DNA from: Rosistilla ulvae
GTDB lineage: Bacteria; Planctomycetota; Planctomycetia; Pirellulales; Pirellulaceae
Reading direction: 5' to 3'
Assembly (NCBI RefSeq): GCF_007741475.1
Contig: NZ_CP036261.1
Span: 5,271,798-5,335,797, forward strand
DNA length: 64,000 bases
Of the stretch, positions 60,339 to 63,835 are shown piece by piece (position 1 is the first letter of the stretch; each line of letters begins with the position of its first letter). The notes beneath the pieces were generated by a model. It did no database searches and was not told the DNA's origin. It saw nothing but the letters and a program-made list of their open reading frames with translations. The position numbers and the translations under genes are program-made.

Positions 60339-61331
60339 TTAGGCCATCAGTTGCTTGATCTCTTCGGGGCTGAACTTCTTTTCCATGCGGGCGCCCAACT
60401 GCGACACGATTCGGCTGGCCGCATGCGACCCCAAGTGGCCGGCTTGTTTCCACGACATGCCGTTGGTGATGCCGTACAACACGCCGCCGGCATACATGTC
60501 GCCAGCTCCCGTGGTGTCGATCGCCTCGGTCGCGACACCTTCGATCGGGAACGATTCACCGCCGTGCATGATGATCGATCCGTTGGCCCCTAAGGTCATC
60601 GCAACGTTTTCGCAGTGCTTGTGAATCTCTGCGGCACAGGCGATTGGATCGGTTAGCTTGGTCAGGCTCTTCGCTTCTTCTTCGTTGCAGAAGAACAGGT
60701 CGACGGGACCTTCGATCAGGCTCCAGATCTCGTCTCGCATCGTGTTTACCAAAAAAGGATCCGATGCGGTGAAGGCAACTTTGACGTTGTTCCGCTTGGC
60801 ACAATCGATCGCCTTGTAAGCAGCCGCCTTGGTCGATTCGCCGGTCAATAGATAACCTTCGACGTACAGGTACTTGGCCTGTGCGATTTCGGCTTCATCG
60901 ATATCAGCTTCGCTGAGCGTGATCGAGACGCCGAGATTGGTCAGCATCGTTCGCTGTGCGTCTTCGCTGATCAAGACCGCACAGGTTCCGGTCGGTCCCG
61001 ATGCCGCAGGGGCAACTTCGATCGAAATTCCCAGATCACGCATGTCCTTCAAAAAGAAGTCGCCGACCTCATCGCCGCTGACCTTTCCCGCGTAGGCGAC
61101 CTTGCCGCCAAAGTCGGCGATTCCGACGATCGTGTTTGCTGCCGATCCGCCGGCACAGCGGTTCAACGAAACGTCGCCCAAACTCGACAGCACGCTTTGC
61201 TGTTGGATGTCGTCGACTAGCGTCATGATCCCTTTGTCAAATCCTGTCGCGGCCAAGACTTGGTCGCTGACGCGGGCTTGAATATCTACCAAGGCGTTTC
61301 CAACGCCGTATACGTCGTACTTCATTGTCAT
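60339..61331 (-). CDS. PfkB-family carbohydrate/adenosine kinase
   Basis: This 330-aa kinase has the N-terminal GNALVDI block, GGSAANT (substrate binding), and the C-terminal [12 protein letters not shown] signature with the catalytic Asp. The overall sequence resembles bacterial adenosine kinases more than fructokinases. It is cytoplasmic and phosphorylates a nucleoside or sugar with ATP. It appears to be transcribed alone. Confidence 0.92.
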
Positions 61332-61570
61332 TTGTTTGGGTTGAAAGGATGCGAAGAAAGCCGGTTCGCGGGTGGGCGATCATCGCGAGCGCAACAAACC
61401 GGGCGACCGCCGAACGGGTGTCCGGAGAGGTTTGTTTATAACGCTTGAGGCCGACTAGCGGCACCTGTCCAACGCAAACCGGCGGCAGTGGGAGAGCTTG
61501 CTGCGGTTGAGAGAATGAAAATTTCGACTTCGCGGCCAGCGATCCACCGCGTGCGAATAGCGCAAGCCGT

Positions 61571-61741
61571 TCAGGACTTTTGCATTGCCGAGGCGATGCT
61601 TTGCGGTTTGCAGAGCAGCTTTTTATCGTTCGCCGCGCGACCACATTTCAGGCAGACGTGCGTCGGTTGATCGATCAAACGTACGTACATCCCGATCTCA
61701 CCACGCAATGATTTTTTTAGTTTGCAGAGTTCTTTGGCCAT
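61571..61741 (-). CDS. 56-aa CxxC small protein downstream of hemP
   Basis: This short frame begins ATG at 61741, ten bases after the hemP stop, and ends TGA at 61571. The product starts MAKELCKLKKSLRG and contains VCLKCGRAANDKKLLCKPQ, a Cys pair plus a third Cys (positions 30, 33, 44) with a Lys-rich N-terminus holding another Cys (6). The CxKCGRxA...LCKP pattern, coding bias and tight spacing argue for a real gene, and I recall similar small proteins in other planctomycetes. It may bind zinc or iron as a zinc-ribbon-like module. It is probably co-transcribed with hemP. The function is unknown. Confidence 0.75.
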   Translation of the reverse strand: MAKELCKLKKSLRGEIGMYVRLIDQPTHVCLKCGRAANDKKLLCKPQSIASAMQKS

Positions 61742-61751
61742 CGACAGGATC

Positions 61752-62012
61752 TCATTTCGTAAGGATTAGTTTGCCTTGGCGGGTCTTGCGCAAGCGGTAT
61801 GTGATCCCGTCCAGCTCGATCCAAACCTCCTGCCGATCACCCGATAGCGTGGAAAACTCAAATACTTTGGGCAGGATCGCCGCTCCGCCGAGATTGGCGA
61901 GGTCGACGGGATCGGTAGGCGAGTCCATTGCGTAGGGTCCGATTGACGGCGGGAAGTCTCGATTCTTGGAAACCGTTGCAACCGCACTGCTGCGGGTGGC
62001 TACAAAAATCAT
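61752..62012 (-). CDS. hemP: Hemin uptake protein HemP
   Basis: The C-terminus WIELDGITYRLRKTRQGKLILTK is the HemP signature (YRLR.TR.GKLILTK). The frame runs 86 aa from ATG 62012; an inner ATG at 61928 would give 58 aa, closer to the usual family length. HemP is a small protein of heme/iron acquisition operons, often Fur-controlled. A Fur-box candidate lies 48 bases upstream of 62012. The 56-aa gene follows it directly. Confidence 0.88.
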   Translation of the reverse strand: MIFVATRSSAVATVSKNRDFPPSIGPYAMDSPTDPVDLANLGGAAILPKVFEFSTLSGDRQEVWIELDGITYRLRKTRQGKLILTK

Positions 62013-62386
62013 TTACGCTGCCATTGTTGTGAAAAATCACATCCCACGCAAGACAGTAATGATACTGATTCTCATTAAATTCATTTTTGGGGCGTTGCTT
62101 TTCAGAGCGATGGGATCGCTACTGGGCAGGATAGGTAAGCGGTGCACGCCATTCGACTCGCTGGCTCTGGGCAACGGGCTGCGTGGGTGGGTGGGATTAA
62201 GGAGACTTGGCAATTGATTCCGAATTGTCGCAATGGGAGATCGCGTTTTAACAATTTCAACGCCAAGCCTAGGCATTGCGTGTTCCCGTGGAGCGGCCCG
62301 AGACGATTCCGAGACATACGCTTTTGTAGATAACAAAGGTGTTCACTGTTTCACGTACGTTCTTCCAAGGATGGGAAACTATAACG
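62013..62386. other. 374-bp divergent control region between hemP and the porin gene
   Basis: It contains the Fur-box candidate at 62060-62074. No further gene is supported; open frames on both strands overlap the region without family resemblance. AAGGA near 62367 lies upstream of the porin ATG. Confidence 0.5.
62060..62074. promoter_or_regulatory. Candidate Fur box upstream of hemP
   Basis: The 7-1-7 sequence TGATACT-G-ATTCTCA differs from the ideal TGATAAT-N-ATTATCA at two positions. It is 48 bases from the hemP ATG at 62012 and ~310 from the porin start, in AT-rich DNA where a promoter is expected. Iron-repressed expression of hemP is therefore likely, and the porin may share control. 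Confidence 0.7.
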
Positions 62387-63835
62387 ATGCGGAAAAGTAT
62401 TTTGGGTGCGCTGTCGATCGCCCTGGCGATTGCCACACAACACAGCGCCTTGTTAGCTGACAACCCCGCCAGCTGGTCTGGTTCCGGTTGCGATGCCGGA
62501 ATGATTTGTGGTGATGGTTGCAACGGCAGCCAAAGCGCAGGTTGCGACGGATGCGGTGCCGGCTGCAATGGTGGCCTCGGTGCAGGTTGCGATGGATGTG
62601 GTTCCGGTTGCAACGGTGGCCTCGGTGCCGGCTGTGATGGATGTGGTTCCGGTTGCGGCATGGGCGGACTGTTTTGCGACAGTGCTGGCGGCGACAGTTG
62701 CTGTGCCGACGGCCTGTTCGGGCTGGGATTGCTGGGAGGAAATCACAGCGGTTGGAACATTTCGGGTTGGGTCGATGCCGGCTTCATCGGAAACACGTCG
62801 AGCCCTGACAGCAAGTTCAACGGGCCCTACAACGCTGTCGACCGTAGCAACGAAGGGATGTTGAACCAGCTGTACATGATCGTCGAGAAACGCCTGCCCC
62901 GTTACGGCGCTGGCATCGGCGGCCGCGTTGATATTCTCTACGGCGAAGATTACCTGTTGGCTCAGTCCAACGGTTTGGAACGCCGCGACGATGGATCGGC
63001 GCGCTGGAACGGCGAATATTATGGCCTGGCATTGCCACAAGCCTATGTCTCGATGGGAAACGAGGACGTCTCGCTGCAGGTCGGTCACTTCTATTCGGTC
63101 GTCGGTTATGAAGGAGTCATGGCCCCCGATAACTTCTTCTACAGCAAATCCTACAGCTACCAATTCGCTGGCCCGTTCACTCACTGGGGGGCCCAGCTGA
63201 ACGTCCGTCCAACCGACGCGTTGAGCTTTAACCTGGGTATTCACAACGGCTGGGATTCGTTGGACCGCGAAAGCGACAAACCTGGCTTCATTGGGAAGGT
63301 CCGCTACGATTCGCAGTCGAGCAAGGCGTGGACTTCGTTTGCCATCACGACGGGCGATTCAAACAACGACTTGGCGGGCGTCGCGCTGAATCCCGACTTC
63401 ACCAATCGCACCCGCTACAGCTGGTTGGTGGCGTTGCCAGTAACCAAACGCTTGGACTACGTCTTCCATCACTGGTTGGGCTTCCAAGAGGAAGGCGCCC
63501 CCGACGGCGGTCGCGCCGATTGGTACGGCATCGACCAATACCTAACCTACAGCTTCAGCGACTGTGTGAAGGGTGCGTTGCGGTTCGAATGGTTCCGCGA
63601 CGAAGAGGGAACACGCGTCGGTTTGAACCGATCCAGCAACCCCAACAATCCGCCATTTGTGGGCGATTTCTACAGCCTGTCGGCCGGTTTGAATCTGGCC
63701 GTTTCCAAGAGCCTGACGATTCGCCCCGAACTGCGCGCCGATTGGTTCGATGGCACTGCCGTCCGCCAACCGTTTGACGATGGCAACGACGACAACCAGT
63801 TCATGCTGGGAATCGACGCCATCTTGCGAATCTAA
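62387..63835 (+). CDS. BBP2-type outer-membrane porin with Cys/Gly-rich N-terminal repeats (482 aa)
   Basis: The ATG at 62387 gives a signal peptide (SILGALSIALAIATQHSALLA). The mature N-terminus (~30-95) is rich in Cys and Gly with tandem AGCDGCGSGCNGGLG units. A beta-barrel porin domain fills ~120-482: GWVDAGFIGNT start, alternating strands such as GGRVDILYGEDYLLAQ and SLQVGHFYSVVGYEG, and C-terminal MLGIDAILRI ending in a hydrophobic residue. This matches the planctomycete putative beta-barrel porin-2 family (DUF1597/BBP2). It is divergent from hemP. A metal- or heme-related transport role is inferred from the neighbours only. Confidence 0.83.
   Translation: MRKSILGALSIALAIATQHSALLADNPASWSGSGCDAGMICGDGCNGSQSAGCDGCGAGCNGGLGAGCDGCGSGCNGGLGAGCDGCGSGCGMGGLFCDSAGGDSCCADGLFGLGLLGGNHSGWNISGWVDAGFIGNTSSPDSKFNGPYNAVDRSNEGMLNQLYMIVEKRLPRYGAGIGGRVDILYGEDYLLAQSNGLERRDDGSARWNGEYYGLALPQAYVSMGNEDVSLQVGHFYSVVGYEGVMAPDNFFYSKSYSYQFAGPFTHWGAQLNVRPTDALSFNLGIHNGWDSLDRESDKPGFIGKVRYDSQSSKAWTSFAITTGDSNNDLAGVALNPDFTNRTRYSWLVALPVTKRLDYVFHHWLGFQEEGAPDGGRADWYGIDQYLTYSFSDCVKGALRFEWFRDEEGTRVGLNRSSNPNNPPFVGDFYSLSAGLNLAVSKSLTIRPELRADWFDGTAVRQPFDDGNDDNQFMLGIDAILRI
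62540..62656 (+). repeat. 45-bp tandem repeat coding for a Cys/Gly-rich unit
   Basis: About 2.6 copies (62540-62584, 62585-62629, 62630-62656) encode GCDGCG(A/S)GCNGGLGA-like units. Copies 1 and 2 differ at a few bases. Such repeats can vary in number by slippage between strains. Confidence 0.85.

Follow-up and report, generated by a model that had tools for sequence, protein, structure and literature searches.

The 56-aa open reading frame lying directly behind hemP in the planctomycete Rosistilla ulvae is a real gene, and we think it somewhat probable that it specifies a cytosolic mini-protein with four cysteines, controlled as part of the iron-starvation (Fur) regulon: a metal-folded small adaptor or regulator acting alongside HemP. 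The gene was studied within a 64,000-nucleotide stretch of the R. ulvae genome, hereafter called the window, and positions given without further label are those of the window. Judged from sequence comparisons, the family to which the mini-protein belongs is unnamed and widespread, with no Pfam or NCBIfam model, which agrees with the description of the protein as new in an earlier note on this DNA. A small-protein family that occurs in more than 10 phyla and has no such model is a ready target for functional work.

The small gene and its product

The pair is encoded on the minus strand. Its first gene is hemP (61752..62012; 86 aa), recognised by Pfam PF10636 over residues 56-86 with an E of 7.2e-14; the second is the small gene (61571..61741), which begins with ATG and is supported by homologues, by alignment and by signs of purifying selection. 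The gap between the hemP stop and the small gene start (61742..61751, minus strand) is operon-like and, just as the earlier note had counted, exactly ten bases long. The short operon proposed there fits this gap, and the same order is found in two further lineages (G049 and G070); we infer that both genes are read from one transcript. The Fur-type palindromic box TGAGAATCAGTATCA (62060..62074, no strand assigned) is located 47 nt before the hemP ATG, while a consensus scan of the minus strand found no promoter-like or terminator-like site in 61300-62400. According to Pfam, a PfkB-type sugar kinase follows the pair on the same strand and a BBP2-type porin lies upstream, divergent from hemP. This porin (62387-63835) carries Cys/Gly-rich repeats (CDGCGSGCNGG) after a signal-like start.

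That the 56-aa frame is a real gene follows from the great excess of synonymous over amino-acid-changing differences in comparison to congeners. There were 16 synonymous codon differences and 1 nonsynonymous one against L005 (dN 0.008, dS 0.67), and 12 and 3, respectively, against L006; the L007-L008 pair was omitted from the dN/dS results, its alignment being off by one codon. Conservation and purifying selection against both congeners thus bear out the coding frame proposed earlier.

The mini-protein, MAKELCKLKKSLRGEIGMYVRLIDQPTHVCLKCGRAANDKKLLCKPQSIASAMQKS, has a net charge of +8 and contains the motif CLKCGRAA...LCKP as it had been described; the hallmark, however, is a set of four invariant cysteines, of which the CxxC emphasised in the earlier note makes up only half. 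An alignment of 69 sequences shows no variation at C6, C30, C33, G34, R35 and C44 and hardly any at K32, A37 and L43; the features by which membership is judged, cysteines at 6, 30, 33 and 44 together with the Arg after CxKCG, are thus common to all 69. The search pattern CxKCGR[ASV]AN favours K32, G34, A37 and N38, whereas C6 and C44 lie outside it and, for loci found with this pattern, are the only two unbiased as conserved cysteines. The spacing in the window protein is C-x23-C-x2-C-x10-C, with the distance from C6 to C30 differing by a few residues in relatives, and the net charge is positive in 69/69 members (mean +7.8, minimum +1).

An AlphaFold model (pLDDT 85.1, pTM 0.64) has helices at 16-23 and 49-55 and short strands. 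Fold searches against the PDB and against viral models returned best E values of 1.5 and 1.1 and no Z of 2 or more; the top PDB names from Foldseek, all with E above 1, included ribosomal proteins and the cytoplasmic domain of LapB. The window mini-protein falls into no Pfam or NCBIfam family, and among the 69 members the matches are weak, many of them being to zinc-ribbon or zinc-finger models (best E 0.0086 for LapB, 0.0095 for RCKP and 0.0041 for FmdB, with none of these for the window protein). The NCBIfam model rubredox_RCKP (NF045720, curated cut-off 45 bits) was considered and rejected: it matched 5/69 members at E <=0.1 (best 0.0095), the window protein not among them, and its profile matched none of 20 genomes, the R. 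ulvae genome included, at E 0.001. A search of solved structures with profile A1 gave one ribosomal protein at E 0.51 and also PRDM9/zinc-finger chains, two PRDM9 sequences reaching whole-sequence E values of 6e-9 and 1.2e-8; these were rejected as a repeated chance likeness to CxxCGR, because every single finger had an E of 3 or worse. In PHROGs, phrog_14303 was matched by 5/19 members (window protein E 0.029) and phrog_4188 by 2/19 (best E 0.004), both families being of unknown function.

By its cysteine pattern, the mini-protein is of a zinc-ribbon or rubredoxin-like type, in which C6 would supply the fourth ligand. Metal binding, as suggested earlier, is probable on the same grounds, and the metal is probably zinc rather than iron. 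Heme binding, the other suggestion of the earlier note, did not fare so well: a Cys-Pro dipeptide is the mark of heme motifs, the window protein has none (its sequence reads C-K-P), and no His or Met is invariant in the 69 sequences. Tandem relatives occur in another lineage of the phylum (L110-L114, L116-L118, L120-L122): their roughly 100-140 aa comprise three CxxC...LCxP-like modules in a row and a Lys-rich tail, and units 1 and 2, unlike unit 3, have a His two positions ahead of their final Cys.

Homologues were found in 19/98 genomes, the own genome included, by a single-sequence search. A profile search, in which the window's LCxxKK type is pooled with sister types (ICKW and others), found the family in 42/149 genomes of the host's family, sister subfamilies also being caught, and in 46/392 genomes of the phylum, some of which matched via the C-terminal half only. 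The conservation in other genomes that the earlier note had proposed to look for is therefore present. Together, the single-sequence search and the profile search of the host's family matched 47 genomes, of which 40 were read with long flanks and 7 were left out. A scan of named genomes with two search patterns, one of them CxKCGR[ASV]AN, yielded at least 80 loci, of which two were dropped (L202, no profile match; L160, 4 nt of upstream sequence). These loci span Planctomycetota, Chloroflexota, Pseudomonadota, Bacillota, Verrucomicrobiota, Spirochaetota, Thermodesulfobacteriota and others, and the scan and the tree together place relatives in more than 10 phyla. Phyla were assigned by record title; L200, whose title names no phylum, resembled Verrucomicrobiota members and was grouped with them, and the group of other loci includes L176, a planctomycete (Sedimentisphaerales). 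In the Aeromonas caviae record NZ_AP026896.1 (4.9 Mb, filed as a plasmid, its size suggesting a chromosome) a 56-aa homologue at 76775-76921 (L023:3992-4162) coincides with no listed feature, the gene table being incomplete. The literature matches listed held no description of the mini-protein, and five motif strings of the family matched no paper in the literature searched.

The Fur-type box in R. ulvae and its relatives

The palindrome at 62060-62074 resembles TGAGAATNATTCTCA-like Fur boxes, and we read it as Fur-type because of this form and because of its hemP and TonB-receptor targets. The E. coli consensus Fur box scored weaker than the TGAGACT form and was hence replaced. Within the window alone, TGAGAATCAGTATCA occurs only once at <=3 mismatches, which is not telling, as shuffles average 1.19. 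Across the whole 7.48 Mb genome (G000), only two sites match TGAGAMTNAKTNTCA, the degenerate form, perfectly, and both of them lie upstream of hemP genes. The candidate Fur box pointed out earlier holds up in this respect, being one of the two, while the other precedes the second hemP. With one mismatch allowed there were 17 matches, as opposed to 2 when the pattern was reversed as a control; since three places had been counted on both strands, the matches amount to 14 places, several of them inside genes. The genome has three hemP genes, at genome positions 3518550 (L001), 5333552 (L002) and 5605789 (L003), two of them boxed and one not: the second (L003) has a box of 15/16 and the third (L001) reaches 10/16 and has no box. 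There are two Fur-family genes in this genome.

A box is also associated with the small gene in part of the relatives. At a level of at least 13/16 within 400 nt upstream, it was found at 10/40 loci of the order vs 6/1143 background windows, a partly circular count since these 40 loci had themselves supplied the boxes behind the consensus, and one in which the three boxed loci from the window's genus are not independent; one of the ten precedes a hemP-small gene pair. At the same level, 8/30 named Planctomycetota loci were boxed vs 13/592 background windows, with L126, L133, L147, L150 and L179 being the same places as order loci, so that fresh boxed loci amount to 6/25. Among Verrucomicrobiota/Lentisphaerota-type named loci the count was 6/9 (background 4/184). 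It was 0/13 at Chloroflexota loci, 0/12 at loci of the ICKW type in the host's family and 1/26 at other named loci. When a matrix built from planctomycete boxes only was applied to a fresh Verrucomicrobiota sample, from which 2/30 loci had been removed as duplicates, 2/28 loci scored >=10 vs 7/294 background windows; both boxed loci are among the 4 LCxW-type members, many of the others being of the LCVLAS type.

As an independent test, 15 small-gene boxes from outside the window's genus were used to train a matrix, which was applied to hemP genes of the host's family. A score >=8 was reached by 14/28 hemP upstream regions vs 8/107 background windows (Mann-Whitney p 0.002), with a threshold chosen post hoc (14/28 vs 17/107 at 6, 14 vs 8 at 8, 11 vs 7 at 10) and several loci sharing a genus and thus not independent; one of 29 loci (L236) was omitted. 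The strict 13-of-16 consensus gave no enrichment before hemP (2/22 vs 3/88, with 7/29 hemP loci not located). The small gene also stands under its own box in four genomes with no detected hemP (G004, G016, G102 and G108; completeness 99, 96, 82 and 91%). In the Verrucomicrobia genome G567 the sole perfect TGMGACTNAGTCTCA is the small gene's own box, and of the one-mismatch boxes, one precedes the called start of a TonB-dependent receptor by about 16 nt while another falls inside a called gene.

The upstream box is thus common to the small gene and other iron genes, with one hemP copy and many family members having none. Boxes occur in two well separated branches, the planctomycete LCxxKK and the verrucomicrobial ICDW types; the tree has too few columns to settle whether control by the box arose once or repeatedly. 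From the boxes, the small gene appears to be induced by iron shortage in the host group and in some relatives. None of the literature matches listed described a Fur box in Planctomycetota or Verrucomicrobiota, and a box common to hemP, a TonB receptor and the mini-protein offers a testable regulon motif.

On our preferred reading, Fur charged with iron would occupy the palindrome at 62060-62074 and repress the hemP-small gene transcript, and iron shortage would lift this repression, so that both small proteins would be made. C6, C30, C33 and C44 would hold one metal ion, around which the mini-protein would fold, leaving exposed a basic face with the invariant R35 and the near-invariant K32. 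The mini-protein would then most likely work through a partner that it binds, either protein or RNA, its role in iron homeostasis being that of a small adaptor or regulator that stands beside HemP and does not act through it.

Gene neighbours and rival explanations

Direct same-strand order of hemP and the small gene was seen in 5/40 loci read, in three lineages (the own genus, G049 and G070). The position next to hemP, where the earlier note proposed to look for the motif in other genomes, is the exception, most loci being arranged otherwise. At L129, L172 and L069 (a place also listed as L179), hemP lies on the opposite strand, 1.4-1.7 kb off. In our impression, which is not a calculation, this recurrent linkage looks like more than chance. 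Nevertheless, the presence of the small gene is independent of that of hemP: there is no excess of co-occurrence, because hemP was found in 32/42 genomes of the family with the small gene vs 76/107 without it, a count in which sister subfamilies are taken together with that of the window and some assemblies are incomplete. Several of the 10/42 small-gene genomes with no detected hemP are such assemblies.

A ferritin-domain gene recurs near the small gene outside the window's order; within the order, the neighbours called at the 40 loci include none. It is a convergent neighbour in L185, L187, L198 and L200 (Verrucomicrobiota-type; L200 by Pfam). In L256, L257, L258 and L263, that is 4/28 fresh Verrucomicrobiota loci, all of the LCxW type, it is on the opposite strand and reaches as far as 553-685 nt upstream, and in Spirochaetales L181 it lies just upstream of the small gene. 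L123 (Chloroflexota) and L125 (no phylum named) have, all in one direction, the small gene, then an orphan and then a ferritin-domain gene; these two loci are the tree rows nearest the window protein outside its genus, in a poorly resolved tree. The orphans themselves (L123:3159-3509, 117 aa; L125:3156-3533, 126 aa) have no Pfam match. The ELCDWS-like branch is placed differently: in six loci (L163, L166, L175, L182, L072 and L076) the small gene is co-directional before hslV-hslU, L178 being a seventh of this type with hslU alone matched, and the hslVU-linked loci have a divergent isochorismatase-family gene. In Bacillota-type records, a Ppx/GppA gene adjoins the mini-protein in L170 and a NIF3/DUF34 gene precedes it in L173.

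The main rival to our reading is a Bfd-like role at ferritin-type stores, in which the four cysteines would hold an iron centre and the mini-protein would dock on a Dps-type or other ferritin during starvation to release iron. The ferritin-domain neighbours in Verrucomicrobiota-type loci, L123, L125 and L181, together with the Fur-type box and the basic character of the protein, speak for such a role, and yet we hold it to be rather unlikely. The window protein has no Pfam match, no Bfd or ferredoxin stands in the best 25 of 26 families for the 69 members, ferritin genes are missing from the called neighbours in the 40 order loci, and the cysteine spacing is unlike that of Bfd. Moreover, the ferritin-domain neighbours look Dps-like by our own reading, and Bfd is not known to serve Dps. 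Slightly less credible still is a general zinc-ribbon housekeeping mini-protein, for example an accessory of proteases or translation, which would have come under Fur incidentally in some lineages. It would account for the absence of the box in 13/13 Chloroflexota and most other loci, for the small gene before hslV-hslU in six loci, for the Ppx-GppA (L170) and NIF3 (L173) neighbours and for the weak profile and fold likeness to LapB, but not easily for boxes in two well separated branches, nor for the repeated finding of hemP, TonB-receptor and ferritin genes close by, a pattern that linkage by chance should seldom yield (our estimate, not a calculation).

A dedicated HemP partner or a heme-binding protein is far less probable than either. 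The 10-nt spacing, the box shared in the own genus, the same order in G049 and G070, and hemP at 1.4-1.7 kb on the other strand in L069, L172 and L129 would suit a partner of HemP; the lack of co-occurrence excess, the boxed copies in four genomes with no detected hemP and the lack of a heme motif do not, and the idea that the protein helps HemP, raised in the earlier note, is thus disfavoured. We prefer the iron-regulon mini-protein to it because of the boxed solo copies and the missing co-occurrence excess. This preferred reading is itself weakened, in its Fur part, because 22/30 Planctomycetota, 13/13 Chloroflexota and 25/26 other loci have no box, and, in its iron part, because the hslV-hslU-linked subfamily is not iron-specific; a protease adaptor is possible for that branch. 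As a broader and rather doubtful idea, the C4 family might be a second, non-Bfd class of small factors coupling iron shortage to Dps/ferritin stores or, in the hslVU branch, to targeted proteolysis, with HemP being just a co-regulated neighbour in the own genus.

Comparison with known systems

Two papers describe HemP/HmuP as small regulators of heme-receptor genes, acting at the transcriptional or post-transcriptional level (PMC9131926, PMC9241770). In R. ulvae, the HemP/HmuP gene (PF10636) is the co-directional neighbour of the small gene and shares its box, whereas the mini-protein itself matches 0 Pfam families and does not belong to PF10636. Bfd, with about 60 aa and four cysteines, resembles the mini-protein in size, in cysteine number and in its iron-starvation context, to which the ferritin-type neighbours in some mini-protein lineages may be added; it differs in that its cysteine spacing is not C-x23-C-x2-C-x10-C, and the mini-protein is no member of its Pfam family. 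This ferredoxin is described as freeing iron by docking on bacterioferritin (PMC7760384). The rubredoxin-like domain of LapB, rubredox_RCKP and FmdB-type zinc ribbons have, like the mini-protein, a CxxCG knuckle and a later Cys, and they differ from it in that the profile matches among the 69 members are only weak and the best Foldseek E is 1.5. Finally, FbpA, FbpB and FbpC of Bacillus subtilis, set apart by having no known four-Cys site, are small, basic and Fur-regulated, as the mini-protein would be, and are thought to aid an iron-sparing RNA.
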